Source: Verrucomicrobia bacterium IMCC26134
GTDB taxonomy: Bacteria; Verrucomicrobiota; Verrucomicrobiia; Opitutales; Opitutaceae
Length of the DNA stretch: 64,000 nt
Direction: 5' to 3'
NCBI GenBank assembly: GCA_000972765.1
Contig: CP011265.1
Coordinates: forward strand, 1,178,001 to 1,242,000
Under the pieces are notes generated by a model. The model saw only the letters and a program-made list of their open reading frames with translations, was not told the origin of the DNA and made no database searches. A program made the translations under genes and the position numbers. Shown piece after piece: positions 48,642-64,000 of the stretch; the first letter of the stretch is position 1; each line of letters starts with the position of its first letter.

Positions 48642-49736
48642 ATGAAAAAACTTGGTTTGGGCGTTCTTGGCCTCGGTGAAGGCCGCAGCATTATCTCCGC
48701 CGGTCTTAGCAGTCCGAACTGGCGCGTCGTTGCCCTGTGTGACGTCAACGAGCAACTCGGCCGCGAGCGACTTGCGGAATTTAAGCTGCCTGCCAAGGCC
48801 TACACCAAAAACTACGACGACATGCTCGCCGATCCGAGCATAGACGTGATCGGTATCTACACGCCCGACCATCTGCACGCGGAGCATGTCATGCGCGCGC
48901 TTCAAGCGGGCAAGCACGTGGTTTGCACAAAGCCCTTCATCGACAGTCTGGCCTCGGCTCGTAAGGTCCTCGCCGCGGTGGAAAAGAGCGGTCGTCATGT
49001 CATGGTCGGCCAGAGTTCGCGTCACTTCGCCCCCTTTGCCCGTCAGCGCGAACACTACGAAAAAGGTGTTCTCGGGGATCTTATCTGTGTCGAGGCCTGC
49101 TACAACGCCGACCATCGCTGGTTTCTCGCCAAGCCCTGGGCGCGCAAGGCCGAGTTCAAATGGCTCTACGGCGGCCTCAGTCACCCGGTGGATTTCGTGC
49201 GCTGGTATCTGCCCCGCATCACCGAGGTGTCGGGTTACGCATTGCTCAGCCCCAACGGCAAGAAGCACGGTCTCGTCCATGCCGACACATTTCAATTTGT
49301 CATGCGCGACGCCGAGGGGCGGGTGGCGCGAGTGAGCGGCGCCTACTCCGGCCCTGTCGTCCCCAATGTTCGCGACAGCAACATGAGTTGCGTGCTGCGC
49401 GGCAGTAAGGGCGCAAGTCAGGGAGACTACTACGATCTGCGCTATGCGTGGAAAACCGACACCCAGTCGGCGATGGAAACGTTTGAGGATCAGGACGCCC
49501 ATTTCTTCCGCTTTGGCGGGCATTCGCACCATGCCGGCGAATACCAAAACTACCTCGACTACTTCGCGCGTTGCCTTGCCAAGGGCGTGGCGCCGAAGCC
49601 CGACGCGACCGAGGGCATCGTCACCGTGGCGCTCATGCAGGCCATGGACGAGGCGGCGGCCTCCGGAAAACCGGTCAAGGTCCGCGACGTGCTGGCTCGC
49701 TACAAGCTCGCGAGTCTTTTTCCAGGCACACCTTAA
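48642..49736 (+). CDS. Gfo/Idh/MocA-family oxidoreductase
   Basis: 364 residues. NAD(P)-dependent oxidation or reduction of a sugar or inositol derivative in the cytoplasm. The dinucleotide-binding N-terminus is LGVLGLGEGRSI (a GLGEG variant of the usual GxGxxG). K97 in VVCTKPF corresponds to the catalytic-region Lys of the EKP motif, with Thr in place of Glu. GGLSHPVDFVRWYLP is the substrate-side helix. The C-terminal domain is standard. It heads a three-gene unit with the GPH transporter (63 bases later) and the TIM-barrel protein. ATG follows TTATTACCCC directly. Confidence 0.9.
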   Translation: MKKLGLGVLGLGEGRSIISAGLSSPNWRVVALCDVNEQLGRERLAEFKLPAKAYTKNYDDMLADPSIDVIGIYTPDHLHAEHVMRALQAGKHVVCTKPFIDSLASARKVLAAVEKSGRHVMVGQSSRHFAPFARQREHYEKGVLGDLICVEACYNADHRWFLAKPWARKAEFKWLYGGLSHPVDFVRWYLPRITEVSGYALLSPNGKKHGLVHADTFQFVMRDAEGRVARVSGAYSGPVVPNVRDSNMSCVLRGSKGASQGDYYDLRYAWKTDTQSAMETFEDQDAHFFRFGGHSHHAGEYQNYLDYFARCLAKGVAPKPDATEGIVTVALMQAMDEAAASGKPVKVRDVLARYKLASLFPGTP

Positions 49737-49799
49737 GTCGCTGCGTCGGTCGTCGACGTATGCTCCGCATCACTACCCCGCTTTCTGTTGTTACCCCAC

Positions 49800-51146
49800 A
49801 TGAGTAAAACCACCTCCACCGTCCGCCTTAGCTATGCCGCGAGCGACATCGCATGCCAGTTGGTTTTCGCACCGATCTCGTTTTACCTGCTGAAATTCTA
49901 CACTGACGTCTATGGATTGGCTGCCGGCGTCGCGGGCACGATCATGCTGGTCGCGCGTTTCGTGGATGCAATCGATGCGCCTCTCTGGGGCATTCTCTTC
50001 GAACGGACCAGGAGTCGCTGGGGTAAAATCCGCCCTTGGTTCCTCTGGCTCTGTGGCCCTTTCGCGATTTTCGGCGTATTAACTTTTCTGACGCCTGACC
50101 TGGCAGGGAACGCAAAGATCATCTACGCGGCCGGCACCTACATCATCGTCAATATCCTCTACACCGGCATCAACACCCCGGTTACCGCGATCTTGTCCGC
50201 CCTGACCGACAACCCTCAGGAGCGGGTCGTGCTGACGTGCTTCCGTATGTTCGGCTCCAAGCTGGGCGTGCTTATCGTCAATCTCACGGCCATGAAACTG
50301 GTCGGCTGGCTGGGCGATGGCGACGACCGCAAGGGTTATCTGCTTACCGTCCCGATCTACGCCGCCGTGGCGGTCGGTATGTTCCTCATCGCCTTTCGCA
50401 ACTTGAAGGAAGTCGTCAAATCCCAGGAGAAGCCCCAGCCCACCCTCAAGGGGTTCGGAGCGCTCCGGGGAAACTGGCCGTGGTGGATCATCGCGAGCAG
50501 CAGCCTTTTGTTCTGGATCGCGTTTATCTCGCGCGTCGCCGCCGCGCCCTACTTTTTTGAATACACTCTGGGCCGCAAGGACCTCATCCCGCTCGCCTTC
50601 GCCCTCGACTTCATCTCGCTGGGCACGGTGCTTTGCCTTCCGTGGATGTGCCGGACCTGGTCGAAAGGAACAGTCTGGGCCGCCGGGCTCGCCGGCATGA
50701 TTGTCGGACAGCTCATCATGGGTTGGGGGCTGGCCCATGGGAACTCACTCCCAATCATCATGACGGGCTGGACTCTGGGCTTTCTCGCCAGCGGAGCCGC
50801 CATGGCCATGCCTTTCTCGGTGATTTCCGACAGCGTCGACTACGGCGAATGGAAGACAGGTATCCGAGCCGCCGGCTTGCTCGCAGCCATTGGAGCCGCG
50901 TTCTGCCTAAAAGCCGGGGCCGGCCTCGGCGGCGCGATCCCCGGCTGGATATTGCAGGCCTGCGACTACGTGCCGAACACCGCCCAATCTGCGTCGGTGC
51001 TTCGCGGTATCGAGTTCAGCGTGGTATGGCTGCCGGCGGCTTGCTTCCTCTTCAGTCTTATCCCGGTGCTTTTCTACCGCCGGTTCGAGTCACAAGAACC
51101 CCGAATCCGCGAGGAGCTGGAGCAACGCAGGGCCGCCGTGGCATGA
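49800..51146 (+). CDS. GPH-family (glycoside-pentoside-hexuronide) MFS symporter
   Basis: 448 residues from ATG 49800. Twelve hydrophobic helices. Family marks: the N-terminal LSYAASDIACQLVFAPISFY, FVDAIDAPLWGILFERTRSR after helix 2 (position of the RTxxRWGKxRPW motif, here RSRWGKIRPW), and the seventh-eighth helix region with SVDYGEWKTGIRAAGLLAA. It imports a (di)saccharide or uronide with a cation. Its stop overlaps the next start as ATGA, so translation is coupled. Xylo-oligosaccharide or glucuronide uptake would fit the xylanase context. Confidence 0.9.
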   Translation: MSKTTSTVRLSYAASDIACQLVFAPISFYLLKFYTDVYGLAAGVAGTIMLVARFVDAIDAPLWGILFERTRSRWGKIRPWFLWLCGPFAIFGVLTFLTPDLAGNAKIIYAAGTYIIVNILYTGINTPVTAILSALTDNPQERVVLTCFRMFGSKLGVLIVNLTAMKLVGWLGDGDDRKGYLLTVPIYAAVAVGMFLIAFRNLKEVVKSQEKPQPTLKGFGALRGNWPWWIIASSSLLFWIAFISRVAAAPYFFEYTLGRKDLIPLAFALDFISLGTVLCLPWMCRTWSKGTVWAAGLAGMIVGQLIMGWGLAHGNSLPIIMTGWTLGFLASGAAMAMPFSVISDSVDYGEWKTGIRAAGLLAAIGAAFCLKAGAGLGGAIPGWILQACDYVPNTAQSASVLRGIEFSVVWLPAACFLFSLIPVLFYRRFESQEPRIREELEQRRAAVA

Positions 51147-52012
51147 GGTGCTCAGCTTTGTTGATTTGTCTGCTCGGCGTTGCGGCGAATGCGTTCGCCA
51201 CCGACGTTCCGCGCTACCGTGTCGGTGTCTGCGACTGGATGATCCTCAAACGCCAGAAACTCGGCGCCTTTCAGCTCACCAAAGACATCGGAGCCGATGG
51301 CGTCGAAGTGGACATGGGCGGCTTGGGTGAGCGTCCGACTTTCGACAGCAAACTGGGCGATCCCGTCGTGCGCGAGCAGTTCCTCGCCAAGGCTCGCGAG
51401 CTCGGTCTGGGCATCTCGTCCCTCGCGATGTCGGGGTTCTACGCCCAGTCCTTCGCTGAACGCGAAGGCGTTGACCGCATGGTGCAGGACACGATTGATA
51501 CCGCAAAAGCGATGGGTGTTTCGGTTCTCTTTCTTCCGCTCGGCGTGCAAGGAGATCTCGTGAAACATCCCGAGTTGAGCACTGTGGTTGTCGAGCGCCT
51601 CAAGACCGCCGGCAAACGAGCCGAAGCGGCGGGCGTGGTGATCGGCATCGAGACCGCGCTCGATGCGGCGGGCGAGGCGGCTTTGCTCGACGAGATCGGT
51701 TCGCCGGCGGTGAAAAGTTATTTCAACCTCGCCAACGCATTCCAAAACAAGCGCGACGTGTGCGCCGAGTTAAGGACTCTCGGGAGGAAACGCATCGTGC
51801 AGATTCACGCCTCCAATACCGATGGCGTCTGGCTGCAGCACGACCCGCAGGTGAACCTTCCGAAAATCAAGGCGACCCTGGACGAGCTGGGCTGGAGCGG
51901 CTGGCTGGTGATCGAGCGCTCGCGGGATGCGACACGCACCGGAGCGAAGGACGTGAAATACAACTTCGGCGCGAATGCGGCGTATCTGAAGCAGGTGTTT
52001 CAAAAACCGTAG
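51143..52012 (+). CDS. Exported TIM-barrel sugar isomerase/epimerase-like protein
   Basis: 289 residues from ATG 51143, which overlaps the transporter stop. The body fits the AP-endonuclease-2/xylose isomerase-like TIM barrel: DIGADGVEVDMGGLGE, LGLGISSLAMSGFYAQ, GVVIGIETALDAAGEA (metal Glu candidate), VKSYFNLANAFQ, RIVQIHASNTDG (metal His candidate), and GWLVIERSRD. It begins with a clear signal peptide (MRCSALLICLLGVAANAFA), so it is exported, which is odd for a family that mostly acts on cytoplasmic sugars. Likely substrate unknown. Confidence 0.85.
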   Translation: MRCSALLICLLGVAANAFATDVPRYRVGVCDWMILKRQKLGAFQLTKDIGADGVEVDMGGLGERPTFDSKLGDPVVREQFLAKARELGLGISSLAMSGFYAQSFAEREGVDRMVQDTIDTAKAMGVSVLFLPLGVQGDLVKHPELSTVVVERLKTAGKRAEAAGVVIGIETALDAAGEAALLDEIGSPAVKSYFNLANAFQNKRDVCAELRTLGRKRIVQIHASNTDGVWLQHDPQVNLPKIKATLDELGWSGWLVIERSRDATRTGAKDVKYNFGANAAYLKQVFQKP

Positions 52013-53025: not shown

Positions 53026-55572
53026 CTACGGTTTGACGATGCCGAGGATGAGGAAGGCGCCGGTATCGCGGACTTCGAGGGTGTGGCGGCCGGCGGGGTA
53101 GTCGAAGGCGTGGACGGTGACGGAGGGGAGCGTATCGAATTTCACCGCGTCCACGATGAAGGGCTCGGCGCCACCGCGCTCGGCGGCGGTGGCGTCGGTT
53201 TCGAGGGTGGGCGGCTTGCGCCACTCGGGGCCGGTGGCATTGAAGTAGCCGATGAGCACACGCACGGGTTCGGCGCATTCGAACTCGATGCGAGGGCGCG
53301 TGCCGGTGCGCGGCAGGGCGATGCCCTGCAGGGCGGCGAGCTCGGGGGCGACGCTAGTGAAGGTGGCGGGAGAATCAGGGAACGCGGTGTTGCCGACTTG
53401 CACGGTGTAGGTCGGCACGCCGGGTGTGAGCAGCTTCCACGGGGCGGGTGTGAGCGGGGCGTGGGTTCGGCCTTTGGCCGTAGCGGGGTCTTTGAGCGCG
53501 GCAACTTGGGCGCGGAAGTCGGTCAGCTCCTGTTCGTAGATGGGGAGCAGTTGCGCCCAATGGTAGTTCGCGGCCTGACCGTTCTTGCCACCGGGCACCG
53601 GAATGCGGCGCTGGGCGGTCTGCATCGAGTTGGCGGCTTTGTAGGCGTCCTTCGTCAACGCGGTGAGCGTGCGGTAGGCGTCGAGGCTGACGGCGAGAAA
53701 GCGCTCGGCGCTCTCCATGTCAGCGAGATCGTGGCTCCGGTTGTAGCGCAGGACGGCCATGGCGGCGTTGGTCTTCGCAACGTAGTTTTCTGACATGGCT
53801 CGGATGGCATGGACGTCGTTGCGCAGACGGGCGAACTCTTCGCTGTTGTTTGTCACCAACGGCGCGGCGCTATCAATGGCGGCGACGGCGTCGGCGGAGA
53901 ACGCGAGCACTTCGGCGTTGATGGAGACGGGTGTTTCGCCCTCGTGCGGGAGTTTCTTCCATTCGCGTTCAGCGTAGTCTTTCAGGCGCTCGCCGGGCGG
54001 CGACTGCGATTCCCAGAGCTCGGGGAACTCGCGGTATTTCTCGGGACGGACAAGCGCGTCGAGCGTCATGCCGAGCGCGAGGGTCTGGCGGTTGCCCTCG
54101 GTGATTCCGTAACGGCGGAGGAGGCGCGGGGCGCATTCGCCGGCGGCGTTGTAGGCTTCGAGAATCTTTGCGGCGGCCGGCGAGCCGTAGTGGTCGGCGA
54201 GGCGCCCGGTCCAGTAGGCGTGTTCGCCGGCGGCGTCGCGATCGGGGTTCCATGCGTAGCGTGCCCAGGCCTCGAACCAAATCCAGTCGCGTTCCCACTG
54301 CTTGAGCGGGGTGGAGGTGATGTCGGGTGATACGGGCCAGTCCCAGTAGAACAGAGGGTAGAGATGAAGGCCGCGGGCGCCGAGCCGGTCGCGCATGGCG
54401 AGGACGGATTTCTGGATGAAATCGGTCGCGCCGTAGCGAAAGGGTTCGAGGTTCGCGAGGATGTGGACGTTGGCGATGTGGGTGGAGCCGACGCGACTCA
54501 TCGTCTGGTGGAGCTGCTGGCGAACGCCACGCGGCTCCCAGGTGGTCAGCGACTCGCCGTTGAATTTCGCCTCGGTGTAGAGGTTTTTGTAAACCTTGAG
54601 CGCCTCGGGCATGACGAGGGTGGCGTCGGTCGCATGGGTTCGGAGCACGACGGGCGGCTCGACGGTGAGACCGGCGGCCTTCATGCCCTCCTTCACGCCG
54701 GGGAGGATGACCTCGGTCATCCAGCGGGTCTGGGCGCTTTGTTCCTGGAGGGCCTCGCCCAGGCAGGGCATGAGACCGACGTGGGGGAACTCGCGCACGA
54801 AGGCGGCGATGGATTTGCGCGTGTAGTCGGCGGCGAGGTCGTTCCACGCATGGAGCTGCGAGTCGAGGCCGTGTTTTTCGGCGAGTGGCTTGGAAATCAG
54901 GATGCTGTAGAATTGCTGGACGAGCCAGATTCCGCGCCGGTCACATTCGGCGGTGAGCCAGCGAAACATCTCCACGTTGCGCTCGAAGACCTCGGGGGAG
55001 ACCTCGACGGCCTCGGGGTAGTCGGGCAGGCGCACGAGCGAGGCGAACGGGTGCCCGTTCCAGAGGTAGAGGGTGTTCATCCTCAAGTCGGCCAGGTAGT
55101 CGAGGTATTCGGTCCAGTAGGCCTTGTCGTAAAAGAACGGGAACTCTTCCGGCGTGTAGGGGTATTCGTAAACTTTTCGGCCGGGCAGGTAGTAAGTCTT
55201 CTGCATGCCGATGCAGGTGCCGCGCAGGACCATGGTCGGTGCGTCGGTAATATTTAAAGGAGCTCGGGAAAAGTCGCCGTCGCAGCGAATGCGCTGGGCC
55301 AGTTCCAGGCAGCCGTAGAGCTGGCCGGTGTCATCCGCGCCGCTGATGGCGATGGTGCCATCCGGGCTCGTCGTGATGGAAAATCCCTCTGGGCGCAGGA
55401 CGCCTTGAGCCGGGCCAACCACGATGCGGGGTGCGTCTTTGGAGAGCGAAGATCTCAGTCGTTCGATGCCGTAGCGCACGCGCGTAGAGGCGTCCGGGGA
55501 GGAGACAATTTCGCCGTGCAGCACGGAGGCCGCCAGCGTAGCGAACAGCAGGGCAAGGAGGCGGAGCTTCAT
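53026..55572 (-). CDS. Exported glycoside-hydrolase-like TIM-barrel protein (GH67/GH20-like N-terminus)
   Basis: 848 residues with a signal peptide (LRLLALLFATLAASVLHGE). The N-terminal domain ends in the fold common to GH67, GH20 and GH84 enzymes (ISGADDTGQLYGCLELAQRI). The TIM barrel follows from about 125 to 450 (EYLDYLADLRMNTLYLWNGH, FPHVGLMPCLGEALQEQ, LYPLFYWDWPVSPD), with acidic residues such as E in CLGEALQEQ available for catalysis. A helical domain and a C-terminal beta domain complete it. The substrate is unknown; an acid-sugar-releasing activity would suit the operon, as a guess. It is the last gene of the seven-gene operon; its start overlaps the previous stop as ATGA. Confidence 0.72.
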   Translation of the reverse strand: MKLRLLALLFATLAASVLHGEIVSSPDASTRVRYGIERLRSSLSKDAPRIVVGPAQGVLRPEGFSITTSPDGTIAISGADDTGQLYGCLELAQRIRCDGDFSRAPLNITDAPTMVLRGTCIGMQKTYYLPGRKVYEYPYTPEEFPFFYDKAYWTEYLDYLADLRMNTLYLWNGHPFASLVRLPDYPEAVEVSPEVFERNVEMFRWLTAECDRRGIWLVQQFYSILISKPLAEKHGLDSQLHAWNDLAADYTRKSIAAFVREFPHVGLMPCLGEALQEQSAQTRWMTEVILPGVKEGMKAAGLTVEPPVVLRTHATDATLVMPEALKVYKNLYTEAKFNGESLTTWEPRGVRQQLHQTMSRVGSTHIANVHILANLEPFRYGATDFIQKSVLAMRDRLGARGLHLYPLFYWDWPVSPDITSTPLKQWERDWIWFEAWARYAWNPDRDAAGEHAYWTGRLADHYGSPAAAKILEAYNAAGECAPRLLRRYGITEGNRQTLALGMTLDALVRPEKYREFPELWESQSPPGERLKDYAEREWKKLPHEGETPVSINAEVLAFSADAVAAIDSAAPLVTNNSEEFARLRNDVHAIRAMSENYVAKTNAAMAVLRYNRSHDLADMESAERFLAVSLDAYRTLTALTKDAYKAANSMQTAQRRIPVPGGKNGQAANYHWAQLLPIYEQELTDFRAQVAALKDPATAKGRTHAPLTPAPWKLLTPGVPTYTVQVGNTAFPDSPATFTSVAPELAALQGIALPRTGTRPRIEFECAEPVRVLIGYFNATGPEWRKPPTLETDATAAERGGAEPFIVDAVKFDTLPSVTVHAFDYPAGRHTLEVRDTGAFLILGIVKP

Positions 55573-57383
55573 GGCGAGGGTGTGATGACGACGTCGTCGA
55601 TCAGGAAGGAGGCGGCGGGGACTTTTGCATCCGCTCCGGGCAGATCGCGACCGCCGTAACCGCGTTCGCGATACGGGCCGGTGCGGAAGGAAAGGCGTTC
55701 CACGGTTTTGACCGGATCGGTGAAGAAAGCAGGGCGGGACAGCGGTGATTTCCCGTCCACCAGCAGGGCGCAGCGGTCGGCATCGATGGCGGCGGGGATT
55801 TCGAGCACAAACTTATGCCAGCTTAACTCGGTGTAGACGCCGCCGTCGATCCACTGCGCCTCATGGCAAACCCACACATGACCGTCCTCGCCCAGCGCGA
55901 TGCGCACGGGCCGGGCGCCCTTGGCGTCGAGCAAGTCGATTTCCAGACGGGCATTATTCTGTCGGGCGAAGATGCTGAATGATATTTTCACCCCGTGGGT
56001 GGCCGGGAAAACGCGGACGGCGCGAGCGTAGTCGTAGGGATCTTCGTCGCGAAGCTCTAGCACGTTGGTTCGCGGTCCGCAGATTTCATCGGTGACCGCT
56101 GCCCTGACGCGCACGGGCGCCCAGAGCGGCGAGTAGATGTTCCATCCGGCGGGCAGGGCGCCGGGCTTGGTCGCCTCAAAGTCGTCGTGGATGGGGCCGG
56201 TGACCGCGGTCGTGACCGGCACGGGCACGCGGGCGACCCAGATGTCCTCTTTGTTGACGGAGTAGGTCAGCCAGAAGGTGGAGGTGGCGTCGGGTCCCGC
56301 CTTGGGGGGATTGCCGGCTTCAATCCCGCGCACGTATTGCGGCCCCATGTTTTTGAGGTAGCCGCCGAATCGCTGGTCGGGCAACTCGCTGTGGATGGAT
56401 GCGAGTCCTTTGAAGGTCGCGCTGTCCTCGCTGGTGGTAACGGCGAGCGGGTAGCGGTTGCGATTGGTCGGGTTGAAAATCAGCGCGTAGCGACCATCGG
56501 CAGTGTTTTGTAGCCAGTATTTCGAGGCGTTGTTCGGAAGATTGGCGGCGAATTTTTTTTCGCTCCAGCTCTCGCCTTGGTTGGTCGTGGTGGCGACCAG
56601 GCGGTTTTTCCAAATGCCGAGGGTGGAGCCGTCGGGACGGGTGACGTAGGAGAGGGCCTTGCCCTTCACGCGATAGAAGCCGGACTCGTCGAGCTGATCT
56701 TCCTCCCACCATTGCGCGGTCACGAGTTTATCGGCCAGTAAGGCGTCGCAGGCGGAGACAAAACCGGGGTCAGGCGCGGCGGAGTAGAGCTGGTAGGGAA
56801 GCGGTAAATCAGGGAAGTCGCGCTTCGTATTGAGACGTATAAAATAGAGGTCGCCAAACGAGCCGTCGGCGTGGATATCGCGCACGGCGCGACCTAGGCC
56901 TTTGCCATCGTTGGGAGAAGGCGGCGTGCCGTAGAAGGAAAGGGCAAGCAGACGACCGTCTGGCGCCACGTAGAAGCCCATGCGCTGGTGGGCAATGGTG
57001 TGCGTGCCATCGGGCAGGGTGATGGCGGGAAAGAGGATGCGCGGTGCGTCCCACGTAAGGCCGTCGGCCGAGGTGGTGAGCGAGGTCACAGTGGGGTTGT
57101 CGTGCTCGTTGACCGCGCCGCTGAGGTATTCGAGGTAAAAACGTCCCCGCCAGTAAGCGAGCATGGGGGCGTGGATGTAGGTGTCGGTCAGGCCGTCGGC
57201 GTGGGCGGACGCGGTGCGGTTGGCGCGAAAAACCTGGATGTTTTGCACACCTGCGACGGGTTGAAGTCCGCCGTCGGCTGTAGGTGCGACCTCGGCCGGG
57301 CCGGTGTAAATCACCGGAGGCACCGGTTCCGACGCATGGAGGGCGAGGGGAAGAAGTAACGCGAGAGGGAGGCGCGGGCTCAT
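55569..57383 (-). CDS. Exported sialidase-like beta-propeller protein with C-terminal lectin-like domain
   Basis: 604 residues with a signal peptide (LPLALLLPLALHASE). Residues about 30-400 look like a six-bladed sialidase-fold propeller (YIHAPMLAYWRGRFYLEYLS, TSLTTSADGLTWD, ATTTNQGESWSEKKF). The Asp-box motif SxDxGxTW is degenerate (SADGLTWD, TNQGESWS). Residues 405-600 form a concanavalin/LamG-like beta domain (HDDFEATKPGALPAGWNIYS). Sialic acid is an unlikely substrate in this setting; related propellers act on rhamnose or uronic acid linkages. It overlaps pdxA at its start and the GH-like gene at its end, each by 4 bases. Confidence 0.75.
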   Translation of the reverse strand: MSPRLPLALLLPLALHASEPVPPVIYTGPAEVAPTADGGLQPVAGVQNIQVFRANRTASAHADGLTDTYIHAPMLAYWRGRFYLEYLSGAVNEHDNPTVTSLTTSADGLTWDAPRILFPAITLPDGTHTIAHQRMGFYVAPDGRLLALSFYGTPPSPNDGKGLGRAVRDIHADGSFGDLYFIRLNTKRDFPDLPLPYQLYSAAPDPGFVSACDALLADKLVTAQWWEEDQLDESGFYRVKGKALSYVTRPDGSTLGIWKNRLVATTTNQGESWSEKKFAANLPNNASKYWLQNTADGRYALIFNPTNRNRYPLAVTTSEDSATFKGLASIHSELPDQRFGGYLKNMGPQYVRGIEAGNPPKAGPDATSTFWLTYSVNKEDIWVARVPVPVTTAVTGPIHDDFEATKPGALPAGWNIYSPLWAPVRVRAAVTDEICGPRTNVLELRDEDPYDYARAVRVFPATHGVKISFSIFARQNNARLEIDLLDAKGARPVRIALGEDGHVWVCHEAQWIDGGVYTELSWHKFVLEIPAAIDADRCALLVDGKSPLSRPAFFTDPVKTVERLSFRTGPYRERGYGGRDLPGADAKVPAASFLIDDVVITPSP

Positions 57384-58390
57384 GGGCGCGGGGTGGTCGC
57401 GTTTGCGGCGAGGATGGCGGCGAGCTTGAGCGCCTCGATGAGGCTGCGCGGATCGCCGCGACCGGTGCCGGCGTTGGTGAAATCAGTGCCGTGTTCGACG
57501 GAGGTGCGGATGATGGGGAGCCCGAGGGTGACGTTTACGCCGCGCCAGATGCCGAGCATCTTGGCGGCGACGTGGCCTTGGTCGTGATACATGGCGACGG
57601 CGCCGTCGAATTCGCCTTGCAGGGTGCGGAAAAAAACCGTGTCGCCCGGCCAGGGACCCGAGGCGTCCAGGCCGAGGGCGCGGGCCTGGGCGATGGCGGG
57701 GGCGATGTATTTCTCCTCTTCGTCGCCGAACAGACCACCCTCACCGGCGTGGGGATTCAGGCCTGCGACGGCGAGCTTGGGTTTTTCGATGCCCAGACGG
57801 CGCACGGCGTCGTGGGTGAGTTGGAGGACTTTAAGGATGCGTTCCGGGCGCACGCGGTCGATGGCTTGGCGGAGGGATACGTGAGTAGAGACATGGGTGA
57901 CGCGCAGCTTGTCGGCCACGAGCATCATGGTGGCGCCCGGGGCCTTGCAGACCTCGGCCAGCAAGCCGGTGTGGCCGTCGAAATGGTGGCCGGCGGCGTT
58001 GAGCGCGGCCTTGTTGAGGGCTGAGGTGACGATGGCGCCGACCCGTCCGGCGAGGGCGAGCTCGGCGGCGGTTTTGACGTATTCATAGGCGGCGTGACCG
58101 GCCATGGGACTGACTTTGCCAACGGCAAGATTGGTGAGATCGACATTTTTCAAGTCGAGCACATCGAGCACGTCCGGATCGAAGCGGGCGGCCTCGGGGG
58201 CGGAGACGGCGTTGAGCCGCAGCTTGGTGCCGGTGTAGGTTTGGGCGCGGTCGAGGGTGGCGGCGTCGCCGACGATGAGCATGCGGCCCAGGGCTCGCAC
58301 CTCGGGTTGAGCGAGGGCTTTGAGGATGATCTCAGGGCCGGTGCCGGCAGGATCGCCTAGAGTGATGGCTATGATTGGCAGGGTGCTCAT
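57380..58390 (-). CDS. PdxA-family 4-phospho-acid dehydrogenase (PdxA2-like)
   Basis: 336 residues. PdxA oxidises 4-hydroxythreonine-4-phosphate; the PdxA2 branch oxidatively decarboxylates D-threonate- or D-erythronate-4-phosphate to dihydroxyacetone phosphate. Metal and substrate motifs: GHTGLLAEVCKAPGATMM, VTHVSTHVSLRQAI, NPHAGEGGLFGDEE, and MYHDQGHVAAKMLG. The first motif has GHTG where PdxA proteins often have GHTE. The adjacent DUF1537 kinase (3 bases away) makes the PdxA2 role far more likely than vitamin B6 synthesis. Its stop overlaps the propeller gene. Confidence 0.88.
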   Translation of the reverse strand: MSTLPIIAITLGDPAGTGPEIILKALAQPEVRALGRMLIVGDAATLDRAQTYTGTKLRLNAVSAPEAARFDPDVLDVLDLKNVDLTNLAVGKVSPMAGHAAYEYVKTAAELALAGRVGAIVTSALNKAALNAAGHHFDGHTGLLAEVCKAPGATMMLVADKLRVTHVSTHVSLRQAIDRVRPERILKVLQLTHDAVRRLGIEKPKLAVAGLNPHAGEGGLFGDEEEKYIAPAIAQARALGLDASGPWPGDTVFFRTLQGEFDGAVAMYHDQGHVAAKMLGIWRGVNVTLGLPIIRTSVEHGTDFTNAGTGRGDPRSLIEALKLAAILAANATTPRP

Positions 58391-58393
58391 GGG

Positions 58394-59512
58394 TCAGGAA
58401 AACAGGTGGGGGTAGAGGCTTTGGAGTTCGGCGGGCCAAGGGTAGCTGCCGGGTTTCAGGGTTATGGTTATCGCATGGTCGTCCGGTTGCAAACTTACCA
58501 CGCCCGGGCCCCAGACCCTGCGCACAGAGAGGCGATTCCATCCCAGCGCGCTCAGCACGGTCGCGGCGGTGGCTCCTCCGGCGATGAGGAGGTGGCGAAA
58601 GGCGCCGGCATCTCGCAGGGCAAGGGCGAGTCCAGCGAAACCAGTTGCGATTTGGGCCGGAGCCGCCGGGTCGTTTAGGGTCAGTTTGGTGGCGGAGACA
58701 GCGGCGGCGCCGCGCTGACGCAGGGCCAGGGCGACCCGTGTTACCGGAGGGGGGCGAAGGCCGTTGAAGAGCAGTGCGGCTTGTCCGGCGATCGAGGCGG
58801 TGGTGCCGTGGAGCAGCAATGCCGGGCCGGCAGGGGATTCGCCACTCGAGGGTCTCCGGCGGTCAGGGATTCGACTCGCCAGCCAGGCGCGAAAAAAATC
58901 CGCGCCACCGGCCGGCAGGGTGTGTTTGTCAACGGCGAGGACCCACTGGGCGGTTTCGGCGGCGCAATGGTGTTCACCCACGATTACCCCGCGGGTCGGC
59001 AGCGGGGATTTGGGGTTGAGATAATGCACGTCGGCACGTCCAGCGGCGTGGAGCAAATCGAGCACCTCGGCGCTGCGGGCCGGGTGGTGTGGATCGCGAG
59101 CGAAGGGGGTTTGGTCGATTGCTTGTCCGTCGATGTAGCAACGACCTTTATGGATGGTTCGGCCGAGTGAAGGGTTGCCCGCGACCAGCACTGTGCGCTG
59201 GAGACCGAAGGCTGCGGCGCAGGCGGAGAGTTCTGCAAGCACGGGGCCGCGCAGAACGGAATCGGTTTTTTTAAACACCCCCGAGTGCGGCCGTGCACTG
59301 AGCCGCGCGGCTCGGCTTTTCACCCGCCCGGCGGCGCGGCCGGGCGTGACGAGCCTGGTGTTGGTATCGAGCACCAGCACATCGGTCTCGATCGCTGCAC
59401 GCGGCACCTTGGTGACGACCACGACTCGCAATCCTGCCTTGTGCGCGAGAGCGCCGACCTCGGCGGCGCCGGTCAGGTCGTCTGCGAGCACGATGATTGG
59501 GCGGCACGCCAT
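58394..59512 (-). CDS. Four-carbon acid sugar kinase family protein (DUF1537, DtnK-like)
   Basis: 372 residues. These kinases phosphorylate D-threonate, D-erythronate or 3-oxo-tetronate at the 4-position. N-terminal substrate domain: IVLADDLTGAAEVG at about 7-20 and VFKKTDSVLRGPVLAEL near 80-96. C-terminal nucleotide-binding domain: LLIAGGATAATVLSALGW. The order kinase-PdxA with a 3-base gap is the arrangement known for threonate/erythronate catabolism to DHAP. No transcription regulator for the pathway is adjacent. Confidence 0.88.
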   Translation of the reverse strand: MACRPIIVLADDLTGAAEVGALAHKAGLRVVVVTKVPRAAIETDVLVLDTNTRLVTPGRAAGRVKSRAARLSARPHSGVFKKTDSVLRGPVLAELSACAAAFGLQRTVLVAGNPSLGRTIHKGRCYIDGQAIDQTPFARDPHHPARSAEVLDLLHAAGRADVHYLNPKSPLPTRGVIVGEHHCAAETAQWVLAVDKHTLPAGGADFFRAWLASRIPDRRRPSSGESPAGPALLLHGTTASIAGQAALLFNGLRPPPVTRVALALRQRGAAAVSATKLTLNDPAAPAQIATGFAGLALALRDAGAFRHLLIAGGATAATVLSALGWNRLSVRRVWGPGVVSLQPDDHAITITLKPGSYPWPAELQSLYPHLFS

Positions 59513-59520
59513 CGGAAAAT

Positions 59521-60420
59521 TCAGCCGAGTTGGCGGAGTTCGGAACGGACGGCCTCCTGATCGGCGGGGCTGAGTGGCAGCAGGGGAGGAATCATGTCGG
59601 CACCGCAGAGGCTGCGCAGGCCGAGGCCGGCTTTGAGTGCGGCGAGGGACTGGCCGAGAGTGCGATTGCGTTGGAAGACCGCGCCCAAGGTATCGAGCTG
59701 CTGCTGGAGTTTTTCTGCGGCAGTCCAGTCACCCGCCTCGGCGGCGTTAAACAGACTGCTCCAACGCTCGGGGTAGAGATTTCCCGAGCTGGGCACGAGT
59801 CCGTCGAAACCGAGCCGAAGCGCGGGAACGGAGTGGGCGGCGATGCCCATGAACAGCGAAAAGTCCGCGCGACCGCCGAAGCGTTTCGCGGTCTCCTCGC
59901 GCCGGCCCGCAGTCCCCTCGGAGTCCTTCAGGCCGGTGATGTTCGGGCGTTGGCTCAGGGCTTCGATCACATCGTAGGGAATGGACATGCCGGTGGTGGC
60001 GGGCATGTTGTAAACCATCAGCGGGCCGCGGATACCGTCGGACAGTCGCTCGAAGTAGGCCTGGATTTCGACAGGCTCCAACTTGAAGTAGTTCGGCAGG
60101 ATGCCGACGGCGGCGTCAGCTCCGAGTGCGAGGTAGGCATTGGCCGCCTCGATGGAATCGCTCACGCAGTTGGAAGCTGCGCAGGCGAAGACGGGGGTGC
60201 GTTTGGCGGCGGTTTTGACCGCGATTTCAACGTAGCGCCGACGCAAGGCGAGGGGGAGCGAGGCGACCTCGCCGGTCGTGCCGAGCACGAGCATGCCGCA
60301 ACCGTTGGAAGCGAGGTGGTCGACCAGGCGGGCGGCGGCGGCCTCGTCGAGCTCGCCGGCGGCGTTGACTGGAGTCACCAGCGGGACGATGACGCCGCGG
60401 TGTTTGGGAGATGTTTTCAT
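59521..60420 (-). CDS. DapA-superfamily lyase (aldolase or dehydratase)
   Basis: 299 residues. Class I Schiff-base TIM barrel. LGTTGE at 46-51 binds the 2-oxoacid carboxylate, Y137 in VYNMPATTG and K165 in GLKDSEG are the catalytic Tyr and Lys. Members include dihydrodipicolinate synthase, N-acetylneuraminate lyase, 2-keto-3-deoxygluconate aldolase and 5-keto-4-deoxyglucarate dehydratase. In this operon a sugar-acid aldolase or dehydratase is most plausible; lysine biosynthesis is unlikely. It is 10 bases from the Fe-ADH gene and 8 bases from the kinase gene. Which reaction it catalyses cannot be read from the sequence. Confidence 0.88.
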   Translation of the reverse strand: MKTSPKHRGVIVPLVTPVNAAGELDEAAAARLVDHLASNGCGMLVLGTTGEVASLPLALRRRYVEIAVKTAAKRTPVFACAASNCVSDSIEAANAYLALGADAAVGILPNYFKLEPVEIQAYFERLSDGIRGPLMVYNMPATTGMSIPYDVIEALSQRPNITGLKDSEGTAGRREETAKRFGGRADFSLFMGIAAHSVPALRLGFDGLVPSSGNLYPERWSSLFNAAEAGDWTAAEKLQQQLDTLGAVFQRNRTLGQSLAALKAGLGLRSLCGADMIPPLLPLSPADQEAVRSELRQLG

Positions 60421-60429
60421 GGTGATAAA

Positions 60430-61563
60430 TCAGTAGGCGGCTTCGTAAATGCGAAGGGCGTCAGGGCGCGTGATTTCGCGCGGGTTGTTCTTGAGGAGGC
60501 GGGTAACGCCGAGGCCGGCGTCGGCGATGCGTGGCAGGGCTGCGCGTGGAATGCCGTGGGCGGAGAGGCCCGCTTTAATGCCGCAGTCGGCGATGAGCTG
60601 TTCCAGCCGATCGGGCAGAGCTTCGATGGAAGCGGCGCCGAGAGCTTCGGCCAGCGAGGCGTGGCGGTCCGGCATTGCGGGTAAGTTAAAACGCACCACA
60701 TGCGGCAGCAGGAGTGCGATCGACAGGCCATGCGCGAGGTGAAATTCGCCACCGAGCGGGTAGGCGAGGGCGTGGACCCCTGCGGTGTTCACGGGACCGA
60801 GCCCCAGGCCGCCGTAGAGACTGCCGAGCGCCACGGCGGAGCGGGCGCTGAGATCGGTGCCGTCACTGACGGCGCGGGCCAGGTGGGCGCCAATCAGCCT
60901 TACGCCCTCGAGAGAGTGGAGATCAACCGCCGGATGCGCGGCGAGGTTGGCGTAGGTTTCAAGGCAATGGGTGAGCGCGTCGATGCCGGTGGTCGCGGTC
61001 AACGCGGGAGGCAAGGACAGCATCAGCGCCGGATCGATGATGGCGGCATCGGGCACGAGGGCGGGGCTGATCACGGCCTTTTTGGCGAGGGCGACTTCGT
61101 CGAGAAGCAGGGCGTTGGGCGAGACCTCGCTCCCTGTGCCGGCGGTGGTGGGCACGCAGACTAAAGTGGTGCGGCGTCCGGCGAGAATATTTATGCCGTA
61201 AAATGCGAGGATGGGTTCGGTCCGGTCGTGCAACGCGGCCACGAGTTTGGCGACGTCGAGCACGCTGCCGCCGCCCACGGCAAGCACCAGATCCGGCACG
61301 AATGCACGGGCGAAGGACCGGATCTTTTCGGCGCAGGCGGTGGTGGGCTCGGGCGGCACGCCGGTGGCGATTTCCACCACGGCAGACTGGGCGCGCAATG
61401 CGTCAGCGAGCGTGCTTGCCTGCGCCAGGACCGACGGGGAGGTTAAAAGGAAAATCCTGCGACTACCGTTAGCATGCAAGAAGGCGATGAGAGCAGGAAT
61501 GGCACAGCCGGTGCCAAAGGTGATTTGCGGGGGCTGACGGAGCGTGACTGAGGTGGGCGACAT
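60430..61563 (-). CDS. Iron-containing (group III) alcohol dehydrogenase
   Basis: 377 residues. NAD(P)-dependent reduction of an aldehyde or oxidation of an alcohol. Nucleotide site VGGGSVLDVAK at about 96-106 and CVPTTAGTGSEVSPNALL. Metal ligands by comparison with FucO are D195 and H199 in GIDALTHCLE, H264 in AGVHALAYPL and H278 in FHLAHGLS. It follows the symporter gene by 2 bases. In the operon it may reduce a short aldehyde released by the lyase, or oxidise the imported sugar alcohol or acid; both are inference. Confidence 0.92.
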   Translation of the reverse strand: MSPTSVTLRQPPQITFGTGCAIPALIAFLHANGSRRIFLLTSPSVLAQASTLADALRAQSAVVEIATGVPPEPTTACAEKIRSFARAFVPDLVLAVGGGSVLDVAKLVAALHDRTEPILAFYGINILAGRRTTLVCVPTTAGTGSEVSPNALLLDEVALAKKAVISPALVPDAAIIDPALMLSLPPALTATTGIDALTHCLETYANLAAHPAVDLHSLEGVRLIGAHLARAVSDGTDLSARSAVALGSLYGGLGLGPVNTAGVHALAYPLGGEFHLAHGLSIALLLPHVVRFNLPAMPDRHASLAEALGAASIEALPDRLEQLIADCGIKAGLSAHGIPRAALPRIADAGLGVTRLLKNNPREITRPDALRIYEAAY

Positions 61564-61565
61564 GG

Positions 61566-63119
61566 TCAGCCGGTCTTGGATGCTTGTTGGGCATGGGAGC
61601 GGAAGGTGAGACGGTCCACGTTTTCAGGGCGCCACCCGCCGAAAAGACGGCTGGAGACGTAACCGGTGATAAACAGCACTAGGTGGCCGAAAACACCGAT
61701 GAGGATCGGGTTCATTTCAAAATTGATGCCGAGGTCGACAAGGTGGTGCTTCGGTTCGGTGGCAACCGCCCATGCGGTGAAAAGAAGACAGCACGCCATG
61801 CCAATATAGCAACCGCGTCGCGTGGCACGACGAGTGAGGAAGCCGAGGCAGAACAAGCCGAGCGTTCCGCCCGAGAGAATCGCGGCGATGGTGATGGCGC
61901 GTTCCATGACCGGCGCAGCGCCTTTATCCGGGATGAGCAGAATGGCGGAACCTGCGGCGAGCAGCCCGCCGACGCCGACCATGATGCGACCGAAGAGGAG
62001 CCGGGAGCGTTCAGGGCTATTCGGCAGAAGAAGGGAGAAGTAGTCGGTGGTGACCACGGTGGCCACGCTGGTGAGATCTGAGCTGACGGTAGACATCGCG
62101 GCGGCGAGGATCGCGGCGGACACAAGTCCTAGCACGCCGGCCGGAAGGTAGTTGATCATGAAATAGGGCATGATGCTGTCGCCCAGCTCGGGTGGCTGGA
62201 TCTTCGCGAGGCTGAAAAAACCGTAGAAGCAGGCGCCGATGAACATGAACGTGAAAAACACCGGCACGCAGATGAGCGCGCCGGAAATGGCTGCGCGGCT
62301 CGCCTCGGCGTCAGTGCGTGCGAGCAGGTAGCGTTGCACGAGATGCTGGTCGGTGACGTAGCGGCGGCACCATTGGATGGCGGCGGTCAGGGTGAATAGC
62401 CAAGTGGTCGTCGTGGTCGTGTCGAACAGGCTGGCCCATGAAAAATCCCAGGACCCGAGTGTCATTCGTCCGCCGCGCCAGGCTTCGCCGACGACGGCGA
62501 ACGGGGCGCCCGCCTCCGGCGCGAACAGCAGCCTAATCAGCACGAAGGAACCGCCGAGGATGAGCACCGTGCCCTGCACGACGTCGGTCCAGACCACAGC
62601 CTTGATGCCTCCGAACATGGTGTAGGCAGCGGTGAAGAGCGCCACGCCGACTATGACTGTCCGCAGCTCCCAACCGGTGAGCACATTGATGGCGATGGCG
62701 GTGGTGAAGAGTGTGACACCGATGTCGAACAGTCTGTCACCCAAGAATCCGAATGAGGTGTAGAGTCGACCTCCCAGCCCGAAGCGCTGGCCGATGTATT
62801 CGTAGGCGCTCATGCGCACGACGCGTCGGTAGAACGGAACGATGAATTTGGCGACGAGGAGTAGCACGAAGGGCAGGATCAGATGGGGCACCACGAAGAT
62901 GAGTCCCTTCTGGAACGAGGTGCCCGGGTGGCCGACAAAGGTGCCGGTGCCTATGATCGTCCCCATGAGCGTGAAGGAGACGACCCAACCGGGAATACTG
63001 CGTCCTCCCGTGAAGTATTCCTCGGTGTTCTTCTGGCGGCGCGAGACCGCGATACCGAGGCCGGCGACAATCAGCGCATAGATGCCGATGACGATAAAAT
63101 CGAGCGTGTGAAGTGACAT
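61566..63119 (-). CDS. Sodium:solute symporter (SSS family)
   Basis: 517 residues, about 13 membrane helices, the SSS length. N-terminal LHTLDFIVIGIYALIVAGLG, then RRQKNTEEYFTGGRSIPGW and the GTFVGHPGTSFQKGL loop. The core has FTAAYTMFGGIKAVVWTDVV and LAAAMSTVSSDLTSVATVV, which holds the sodium-site Ser/Thr pair. It imports an organic solute with sodium; sugars, sugar acids and sialic acids are known ligands in the family. First gene of the seven-gene operon; its ATG is preceded by CACCCCCC. Confidence 0.92.
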   Translation of the reverse strand: MSLHTLDFIVIGIYALIVAGLGIAVSRRQKNTEEYFTGGRSIPGWVVSFTLMGTIIGTGTFVGHPGTSFQKGLIFVVPHLILPFVLLLVAKFIVPFYRRVVRMSAYEYIGQRFGLGGRLYTSFGFLGDRLFDIGVTLFTTAIAINVLTGWELRTVIVGVALFTAAYTMFGGIKAVVWTDVVQGTVLILGGSFVLIRLLFAPEAGAPFAVVGEAWRGGRMTLGSWDFSWASLFDTTTTTTWLFTLTAAIQWCRRYVTDQHLVQRYLLARTDAEASRAAISGALICVPVFFTFMFIGACFYGFFSLAKIQPPELGDSIMPYFMINYLPAGVLGLVSAAILAAAMSTVSSDLTSVATVVTTDYFSLLLPNSPERSRLLFGRIMVGVGGLLAAGSAILLIPDKGAAPVMERAITIAAILSGGTLGLFCLGFLTRRATRRGCYIGMACCLLFTAWAVATEPKHHLVDLGINFEMNPILIGVFGHLVLFITGYVSSRLFGGWRPENVDRLTFRSHAQQASKTG

Positions 63120-63565
63120 GGGGGGTGAAATCTAAGCCGCGCCGAGGGGGTGAATGGAGGCGCCACGTATCGACCAGAGGAGTGGACAAGGTAGAGGCAA
63201 TCTTAGAATACGATAGGTGAAATCGACCGAAAATAATTTACGCATAGGCTACTTGAACTCGCTTTACGCCCCGGGATCGAGGTTTGCCGGGTGGTGACTT
63301 TTATTAGTCGCTGCCCAGCCGTGATTCGGCCGTATGGCGGAGTTAGCTGAAACGCTGCTCGTGCTGCTTCGCTGGTGGACGATTTGCGCTGGTGGCGTTA
63401 CGATGCTGGGAGTAATATTTTAAAATGCGGGAGAGACTTTCGCTGACTTACGCTATTTTGACAGGTTAAGTCTTCCAGGACGTCTCGCCTATTCTGCCCC
63501 TCTTAGTTTAGAATGGCGTTTCGTTTTCTCTTAGACTGCCACCTGCCGCCCCGACCTCTCACGTC
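63120..63565. other. Divergent intergenic region between the seven-gene operon and the GH63-like gene
   Basis: About 446 bases with no coding frame I can support. It should contain promoters for both sides. A TTGACA word occurs around 63456 but no -10 sits at the right distance, and a TATTCT word on the minus strand near 63205 has only a weak -35. No clear operator palindrome or riboswitch was seen. Confidence 0.5.
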
Positions 63566-64000
63566 ATGTTTGATTCGTTTCCTATTTTTTACACCCGCAC
63601 ATCAGGCCTGTTATCGATGCTTATCGGCCTCGTTTTTTTTACGGATTCAGGGTTTTCGGCTGGGCCGACGGTGTTGGAATACGCTGCGTTCTCGCATCAC
63701 GTGGAGAAGTTCAATGCCATGGAGCCTGAGCTTGTCCTTAACCATGTGCCTGACGCCCAGGCCTGGGATTGGCTGAAGGTCAACGTGCCAATCTTCGAGT
63801 GCCCCGACCCGCAAATCGAGGAGATCTATTGGTTTCGCTGGTGGGCGCTGCGCAAACAACTGCGGCGCGACGCCGGCAGCGGACGATTTGTTTTTGGCGA
63901 ATTCATCAACCGCCCCAGGCCGGTCAGCAGCGCGCTGGGGCATCATTTGATGGAGGGACGCTGGTTGCGCGATCAGCATTATCACGACGACTACGTGCTT
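63566..64000 (+). CDS. Exported GH63-like glycosidase, N-terminal part, cut by right window edge
   Basis: From ATG 63566, 145 codons stay open to the last base. Signal peptide SGLLSMLIGLVFFTDSGFSA, then VLEYAAFSHHVEKFN. IFECPDPQIEEIYWFRWWAL, FVFGEFINRPRPVSSALGHH and MEGRWLRDQHYHDDYVL match the start of the (alpha/alpha)6-barrel glycosidases annotated as GH63-like or mannosylglycerate-hydrolase type. The catalytic residues would come later and are outside the window. ATG 63617 is an alternative start. Divergent from the seven-gene operon. Confidence 0.78.
   Translation, partial: MFDSFPIFYTRTSGLLSMLIGLVFFTDSGFSAGPTVLEYAAFSHHVEKFNAMEPELVLNHVPDAQAWDWLKVNVPIFECPDPQIEEIYWFRWWALRKQLRRDAGSGRFVFGEFINRPRPVSSALGHHLMEGRWLRDQHYHDDYVL

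Follow-up and report, generated by a model that had tools for sequence, protein, structure and literature searches.

What might a bacterium do with 3-deoxy-D-lyxo-2-heptulosarate (Dha), an acid sugar that in plants is reported, according to a passage of PMC12168206, only from rhamnogalacturonan II (RG-II)? The question is raised by a stretch of 64,000 nucleotides from Verrucomicrobia bacterium IMCC26134 (contig CP011265.1, positions 1,178,001 to 1,242,000 of the forward strand; the whole stretch is called the window here), whose genome of 4.0 Mb is in one contig and 100% complete. Window positions 53026 to 63119 hold seven minus-strand open reading frames (ORFs), all starting with ATG, which encode in order of transcription a sodium:solute symporter (SSS), an iron-type alcohol dehydrogenase (Fe-ADH), a lyase of the DapA superfamily, a DUF1537 kinase, a PdxA-family dehydrogenase, an exported beta-propeller and an exported TIM barrel. 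A first-pass annotation had seen an operon here, with short gaps or 4-base overlaps between genes in just this order, and the ORF coordinates together with the Pfam families bear it out (Table 1). Probably, though with room left for doubt, the operon releases Dha from side chain D of RG-II and catabolises it.

Its parts belong to known enzyme families; what is new is the combination, the substrate and the spread across phyla. Among the matches listed from the open-access literature, in the portions of text that these give, there is no description of a microbial pathway for Dha catabolism. Gene order, families, conserved motifs, linkage across phyla, and a balance of stereochemistry and atoms are what is seen here.

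The proposed route

The exported GH143-type propeller would free Dha from side chain D, the GH138-like barrel would trim galacturonate elsewhere on RG-II, and the symporter would import the Dha. The lyase would then perform a retro-aldol cleavage at C3-C4, yielding pyruvate and a C4 aldehyde acid, which the iron dehydrogenase would reduce with NADH to D-threonate. From this the kinase would make D-threonate 4-phosphate, and the PdxA2-like enzyme would oxidise and decarboxylate it to dihydroxyacetone phosphate (DHAP) and CO2, returning the NADH. The net reaction, Dha + ATP -> pyruvate + DHAP + CO2 + ADP, would be redox-neutral. For this organism all of the catalysis is inferred, as is what the symporter imports. 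The atoms of the route balance, and Fischer bookkeeping, in which the aldehyde is reduced and the product renumbered from the old C7 carboxylate, leads from the D-lyxo configuration to D-threonate; D-xylo leads there likewise, and D-ribo and D-arabino lead to L-erythronate.

The DtnK/PdxA2 pair acts on D-threonate and yields DHAP and CO2; DUF1537 kinases and the D-threonate pathway were reportedly treated by Zhang et al. in 2016, a paper that PMC9997740 cites. As in that pathway, the operon places its DUF1537 kinase immediately ahead of the PdxA2-like enzyme; unlike it, the operon adds a lyase and an iron dehydrogenase by which a C7 ulosarate would be turned into D-threonate, is tied to pectin hydrolases, and has a divergent kinase that falls below the DtnK cut-off. 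For the aldol step the DapA superfamily offers the C7 dioic acid precedent of dihydrodipicolinate synthase (DHDPS), which joins pyruvate with a C4 semialdehyde. Another member, the 2,4-dihydroxyhept-2-ene-1,7-dioate aldolase of TIGR02313, which presumably splits a C7 dioic acid into pyruvate and a C4 semialdehyde acid, is a precedent for the chemistry and not for membership, the window lyase scoring 127 bits against a cut-off of 396.7.

The first-pass annotation had supposed that the exported proteins free an unusual acid sugar, that the symporter imports it and the lyase splits it, that the dehydrogenase takes the aldehyde half and that kinase and PdxA lead to DHAP. That outline fits the findings and is supported, and it can be refined in two ways: the resemblance of the propeller to GH143, a Dha hydrolase family, and of the barrel to GH138 allows the acid sugar to be named as Dha, and the aldehyde half would be the precursor of D-threonate and not a side product, which makes the path a single linear one. 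As a proposal for Dha use it is complete, redox-neutral and stereochemically specific.

Table 1. Features of the operon and its upstream flank, in order of transcription of the operon (window coordinates; gaps in bases to the preceding gene)
Feature	Position	Strand	Family evidence or remark	Gap	Proposed role
Sodium:solute symporter (SSS family)	61566..63119	-	PF00474 147 bits; TIGR00813 203.9 vs cut-off 184 (passed)		Proposed Dha importer
Iron-type alcohol dehydrogenase (Fe-ADH)	60430..61563	-	PF00465/PF25137	2	Proposed C4 aldehyde acid reductase, to D-threonate
DapA-superfamily lyase	59521..60420	-	PF00701 169 bits	9	Proposed aldolase splitting Dha into pyruvate and a C4 aldehyde acid
DUF1537 kinase (SBD_N/NBD_C)	58394..59512	-	PF07005 116 bits, PF17042 35 bits	8	Proposed D-threonate 4-kinase
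PdxA2-like dehydrogenase	57380..58390	-	PF04166 337 bits	3	Proposed D-threonate 4-phosphate dehydrogenase/decarboxylase, to DHAP
Exported GH143-type beta-propeller	55569..57383	-	PF24067 Beta-prop_BT_1020 260.5 bits; Sialidase-like_CBM; BNR_2	4-base overlap	Proposed Dha hydrolase, RG-II side chain D
Exported GH138-like alpha-galacturonidase, TIM-barrel	53026..55572	-	NF049878 1044.6 bits; 6hzf E=3e-224	4-base overlap	
Divergent intergenic region	63120..63565	.	TATTACTnCCnGnATCGTAA common to window, L050, L052 (by eye)		Possible operator
Start of divergent pectin-type operon (MGH1-like GH)	63566..64000	+	Continues past window		

The exported proteins

The propeller, of 604 amino acids with an N-terminus that by eye resembles a signal peptide, passes the PF24067 cut-off of 27 bits almost tenfold, and its residues 17-595, nearly the whole protein, align (E=1.9e-107) to the N-terminal propeller and carbohydrate-binding region (21-604) of BT_1020 of B. 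thetaiotaomicron (PDB 5mqr, 1108-residue chain), a fusion of GH143 with a GH142 beta-L-arabinofuranosidase. By its sequence it is a BT_1020-like propeller of GH143 type. That family, according to parts of PMC6811678, was made for the two-site B. thetaiotaomicron enzyme that takes first L-arabinofuranose and then Dha off side chain D; Dha is removed at a propeller of five blades that carries a Tyr-Glu nucleophile pair. The GH142 arabinofuranosidase residues of BT_1020 lie, in a passage of PMC7263609, at 694-1019, and the window protein would therefore correspond to the Dha-hydrolase half; it differs from BT_1020 in being without the GH142 half and in sitting in a metabolic operon. A Dha hydrolase is accordingly what the match to the GH143 half leads us to propose, as a candidate activity. 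Among 13 propeller sequences the invariant columns include Y69, Y350, E93, E379, D205, R53, R56, R134, R352 and R385; Y69, E93, R134, D205, R352 and E379 match BT_1020 and position 350 aligns with a Tyr there by eye. The Tyr-Glu pair and the carboxylate-binding arginines may be among these residues.

By eye the barrel, too, seems to carry a signal peptide; Pfam yields nothing for it at E<=0.1. Its alignment to BPa0997 (PDB 6hzf), a GH138 alpha-galacturonidase, takes in Glu361, kept within an aligned NGESLTT motif and replaced in one of 6hze/6hzg; the molecule name there (E361S) suggests that this Glu is catalytic. Unlike BPa0997 it stays below the NCBIfam equivalog cut-off (NF049878, cut-off 1300) and is an operon-mate of a catabolic module. 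GH138 presumably acts on a side chain of RG-II other than the one with Dha. Independently, GH138, GH140 and GH143 are listed for an Opitutaceae isolate from duckweed culture in a portion of PMC12613999.

The metabolic enzymes and the symporter

The lyase keeps GTTGE at 47-51, Y137 and K165, and K165, Y137, G47, T48 and G50 are invariant in 11 sequences. We take K165 to be the Schiff-base Lys, Y137 the catalytic Tyr, and the GTTGE-type loop a further feature of pyruvate aldolases of the superfamily, the residue set of which the lyase has in full. DHDPS of lysine synthesis it does not appear to be, by score (TIGR00674 dapA: 145.1, cut-off 206.15), by residue and by the absence of a dap gene context: Thr142 stands where the genome's own DapA carries an arginine (YSIPGRCG), which presumably binds the distal carboxylate in DHDPS, and the lyases of the GH143-linked loci shown also have threonine there, or alanine in one (L071). 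A lysine role was rejected, the genome having its own dapA (358.4 bits, over the cut-off) next to dapB.

A sialidase-like propeller beside a lyase of the DapA/NanA superfamily, with a transporter of the SSS family, which can carry sialic acid, might also be taken for an operon for sialic acid of the N-acetylneuraminic acid type. The NanA models give the lyase only 86-97 bits against cut-offs of 281-382, no N-acetylmannosamine kinase or epimerase is found among the seven genes, and the propeller is of BT_1020 type; such a use of the operon is very improbable.

In the Fe-ADH the motifs GIDALTH and GVHALAYPLGGEFHLAHG hold Asp and His positions, which we take to be iron ligands, across the compared set except in sequences ending early. 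The kinase is over the cut-off for PF07005 and PF17042, has ADDxTGA and KxDS in 28 compared sequences, and has as its best NCBIfam match the D-threonate kinase DtnK (NF047819). Across those 28 sequences the motifs of kinase, Fe-ADH and PdxA hold, barring early-ending pieces and weaker C-terminal motifs of the kinase.

Do kinase and PdxA instead serve vitamin B6, that is, pyridoxal 5'-phosphate (PLP), as a portion of PMC12928451 holds for a related E. coli pair? PdxA2 can, a passage of PMC9997740 says, catalyse the PdxA reaction, and the window protein passes TIGR00557 and has a PdxA model as its best in NCBIfam (NF002992, 362 bits, cut-off 470 not reached). Against that, it scores 306 bits to PdxA2 2hi1 and 293 to the D-threonate-4-phosphate dehydrogenase 6e85, and 204 to PdxA 1ps7, being about 100 bits closer to PdxA2; its context is polysaccharide degradation; and a second PdxA at G000:C1:1482752, 35% identical to the operon copy and adjoining a hexapeptide acyltransferase gene, is over TIGR00557 and closest to the 1ps7 type. 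The operon PdxA is neither the only PdxA of the genome nor the most PdxA-like. The first-pass annotation would have been refuted had the pair proved to belong to B6 metabolism; the presence of a second PdxA that is nearer to the biosynthetic kind speaks against that. Because this second PdxA and the DapA beside DapB exist elsewhere in the genome, the operon enzymes are free for catabolism; B6 and lysine roles for them are unlikely, and B6 as the explanation of kinase and PdxA together deserves hardly any credence.

By sequence, then, the window proteins would work like D-threonate kinase, PdxA2 and GH138, and no NCBIfam membership is claimed where cut-offs are unreached.

Recurrence of the four metabolic genes beside GH143

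If the operon's gene set were accidental, would it recur? Of 387 genomes of the phylum, 38 match the Pfam family of the propeller, PF24067, at E<=0.001, many of them only weakly. An alignment of GH143 was also run against a species collection, and the best 80 of 286 confirmed stretches were used. Four loci (L034, L037, L039, L043) are on the same contigs as L069, L068, L050 and L051 and were counted once; longest-ORF calling misses genes in GC-rich DNA, and calls there, and in four records without gene tables, were made by tblastn. The four-gene core, Fe-ADH, DapA-type lyase, kinase and PdxA, is near GH143 in 21 distinct loci including the window. All four are in 15 of the 80 loci (L050-L054, L056, L062, L066, L068-L073, L088) and in nine of the 17 loci of the phylum search, four of these being repeats and five additional. 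The first-pass annotation would have been undone by rarity of joint occurrence; as it is, 20 distinct loci besides the window have all four genes near this propeller, more than chance would give.

Among the 24 loci in which GH143 is at least 52% identical to that of the window, 14 have all four genes, one (L055) ends too early, and nine have none (L057-L061, L063-L065 and L067, the last only 4.4 kb long); among the remaining 56, L088 alone has all four and six have one. L088, from Verrucomicrobia subdivision 3, and L045, from the same phylum only, are outliers outside the window's class, with other gene orders. Seen from the kinase, 13 of the 387 genomes have a match at E<=1e-30, and in ten of them GH143 is beside the full core; one other (G292) has the row SSS-FeADH-DapA-PdxA-kinase without GH143.

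Twenty genomes have a GH143 locus that lacks an adjacent core. Eleven of these have a kinase match, and in two of the eleven the core is elsewhere: G119 has it at L034, and Paludibacter, of the Bacteroidota (G398), at L182, on a contig other than that of its GH143 (L097). In G399 and G400, the only two others looked at, no core is around the kinase. The Paludibacter row runs MGH1-like, GH78, DapA, SSS, FeADH, PdxA, kinase, GH28, esterase-like, GH95, GH106, which puts the core in a second phylum, within a pectin-type locus.

The first-pass annotation had spoken of an exact set of seven genes. What recurs is the core of four, the rest being more variable: no part is less conserved than the symporter, whose identity falls from 96% to 35% across the core loci and which is found in 14 of the 20 others at E<=1e-20 and in several is distant, replaced or not seen, and GH138 is seen in nine of the 21 (some stretches end early).

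This last count touches the idea that the operon is one for galacturonate, with GH138 releasing it, the symporter importing it and the DapA-family protein either dehydrating a keto-deoxy sugar acid or splitting it as an aldolase. A GH138-like gene is indeed in the operon, and the superfamily takes in 5-dehydro-4-deoxyglucarate dehydratase. Yet GH138 is unseen in the other 12 core loci, the lyase reaches only 75.3 with KdgD against a cut-off of 373.95, there is no uronate dehydrogenase or isomerase among the operon genes, and kinase and PdxA2 would stay unexplained; the idea is quite unlikely, if not to the degree that the sialic acid and B6 ones are.

As an observation apart, one locus of Paenibacillus rhizosphaerae (L094) has GH143, a GH138-like gene and a gene of COG4692 type together, without the metabolic core.

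The same families in E. coli, Alphaproteobacteria and Enterococcus

A portion of PMC12928451 describes an unexplained E. coli region with genes for a COG4692 protein, a NanQ-like protein, DapA, Fe-ADH, DtnK-like and PdxA2-like enzymes, and a similar cluster in S. meliloti; there the kinase/PdxA2 pair of E. coli is assigned to PLP synthesis. The region ('GR 6', between nagE and glnS) was located in CFT073 as C_RS03545-C_RS03585, and of 5426 complete E. coli genomes, 1044 match a 6.5 kb query from the sialidase-like protein to PdxA2, in 1043 cases with 80% or more of the query covered. Strain ATCC 25922, used as a laboratory control, matches at 100% identity. Like the window it has a DapA-family protein, Fe-ADH, D-threonate kinase, D-threonate-4-phosphate dehydrogenase, sialidase-like protein and transporter; unlike the window, its sialidase-like protein is COG4692/BNR_2, resembling the window GH143 in a 45-residue BNR stretch only, and it has an SLC13 transporter, a YhcH-type protein, TerC and DeoR. 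Here both family models are passed, the kinase at 533.4 against the D-threonate kinase cut-off of 450 and the dehydrogenase at 681.6 against 583. The YhcH protein has a relative in N-acetylneuraminate anomerase (90.5 bits, under the cut-off of 160), which would be in keeping with a cyclic ulosonic acid whose ring has to open ahead of an aldolase.

Identities between E. coli and window are 24-26% for the lyase, 34% for Fe-ADH, 30% for the kinase (N-terminal part) and 47% for PdxA2, and because they are so low a common function is argued from the shared gene set and not from sequence closeness. How constant is that set? COG4692 is in 313 plasmid records (Rhizobium 128, Sinorhizobium 78, Pantoea 27, Agrobacterium 17; mostly genera known as plant-associated), of which 40 were listed and 11 opened for taxonomic spread. 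Altogether 16 COG4692 loci were viewed, five of them reached via core genes or the paper and hence biased, and 11 picked by COG4692 alone. All four families are in 13 of the 16, Pantoea stewartii having three and L192 and L193 none; in the 11 unbiased loci the count is eight (in L186 PdxA matches in two frames). Six plasmid loci were reached via a core gene: four (L134, L135, L140 and L141, the last with its kinase in two frames) have all four families and COG4692, and the other two, without COG4692 and Fe-ADH, have kinase and PdxA, alone in L136 and with a DapA-like gene 8 kb off in L142. The transporter beside the core is SSS in Pantoea, Roseomonas and Methylobacterium (21-23% identical to the window symporter), ABC in rhizobia, Agrobacterium and Azospirillum, and SLC13 in E. 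coli and Enterococcus.

In the Pantoea stewartii plasmid (L183) PdxA2, Fe-ADH, DapA, SSS, sialidase-like and YhcH genes are together, with no kinase within the 17 kb stretch, possibly lost or elsewhere. The COG4692/BNR_2 protein of CFT073 (L138:15475-16644) has no signal peptide by eye and for that reason may act inside the cell.

COG4692/BNR_2 proteins are a candidate new family of Dha- or Kdo-glycosidases (Kdo, 3-deoxy-D-manno-oct-2-ulosonic acid). A wider reading is that the four-gene set is a general bacterial Dha pathway, in at least four phyla and about a fifth of complete E. coli genomes, and a natural origin of D-threonate, with the COG4692 proteins beside it in E. coli, rhizobia and Enterococcus as a second, unrecognised, intracellular Dha-glycosidase family acting on imported Dha oligosaccharides. 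This we hold tentatively, with failure a shade more to be expected than success, a reason for caution being that outside Verrucomicrobiota and Bacteroidota the lyases share no more than about 23-29% identity with that of the window. If true, it would account for a possible natural source of D-threonate, assign a role to an operon of E. coli that so far lacks one, and correct the vitamin B6 role suggested for it.

Weighing the Dha route

A number of results count against Dha as the operon's substrate. Among the enzymes, the kinase has 107.7 bits against the D-threonate kinase cut-off of 450, and the PdxA 336 against that of NF002891, the D-threonate-4-phosphate dehydrogenase model, of 583; this PdxA passes only the general model TIGR00557, and NCBIfam alone would name it PdxA. 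The E. coli and S. meliloti lyases retain the arginine that the window lyase has replaced, and so the binding of the distal carboxylate is unexplained in the latter. Those two lyases share no more than 24% and 23% identity with that of the window, the same reaction being presumed for them, and other alphaproteobacterial lyases are 26-29% identical to the nearer of two references. At the polysaccharide, the GH142 half is absent from the window propeller, although side chain D terminates, in one source passage, in beta-L-arabinofuranose. In distribution, 64 of the 80 GH143 loci, setting aside L055 which ends early, hold none or one of the core genes; nine of the 20 genomes with a GH143 locus lacking an adjacent core have no kinase match; and neither symporter nor GH138 is constant.

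In G271 and G099 (20 kb viewed), moreover, kinase and PdxA have neither lyase nor Fe-ADH within some 10 kb, and the pair is without the other two on the E. coli plasmid of L136 as well, as would be expected if two sugars were involved: lyase and Fe-ADH would handle Kdo of RG-II side chain C, by way of pyruvate and D-arabinose to an alditol, and kinase and PdxA2 would take free D-threonate or D-erythronate. RG-II does also bear Kdo, according to a part of PMC12282258. However, the four genes are together with GH143 or a COG4692 protein in 34 collected loci (21 + 13, not all independent) with varying gene order, Kdo leaves no acid half, and a single linear Dha path employs every gene. Two sugars are improbable, if the least so of the alternatives to Dha considered here.

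Surroundings of the operon

From 63566 a divergent operon (L155:567-12698) encodes an MGH1-like hydrolase, a DUF6298 protein, an apiosidase-like protein (DUF5060 type, nearest structure 4n0r), a BT_3657-like protein, a second SSS symporter, a BNR_2 protein and a GH78-type rhamnosidase. As a pectin-type neighbour it counts, together with the GH138-like gene, in favour of Dha. Of the 21 core loci, 13 have an MGH1-like gene next to the core on the opposite strand. In Planctomycetota, too (L103, L107, L111, L117, L119, L126), GH143 has MGH1-like, DUF6298 and/or apiosidase-like genes nearby. DUF6298, a Pfam family without known function, accompanies GH143 in loci of both Verrucomicrobiota and Planctomycetota and may be a pectin enzyme.

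A promoter scan gave one site where shuffled sequences average 1.9; terminator-like sites number 24 against 10.6 in shuffles, nearly all inside the seven genes. Converging on the 3' end of the operon, plus-strand genes at 48642-52012 for a Gfo/Idh/MocA oxidoreductase, a GPH-type MFS sugar transporter and a xylose-isomerase-like TIM barrel are probably another sugar module. Elsewhere in the genome (G000:C1 near 546128; L156:3686-9385) a second DUF1537 kinase, with the 3-oxo-isoapionate kinase OiaK as its best match (365.6 bits, below the cut-off of 700), neighbours a galactarate/altronate-dehydratase-type protein, a short-chain dehydrogenase/reductase, an enolase-superfamily protein and a RuBisCO-like protein, a cluster that would, we assume, fit catabolism of apiose, another RG-II sugar. 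Upstream of the symporter, TATTACTnCCnGnATCGTAA and GTATTCTAAG(A/G)TTGC are common to the window, L050 and L052 (three related sequences, compared by eye with no control), and may be an operator and a promoter element.

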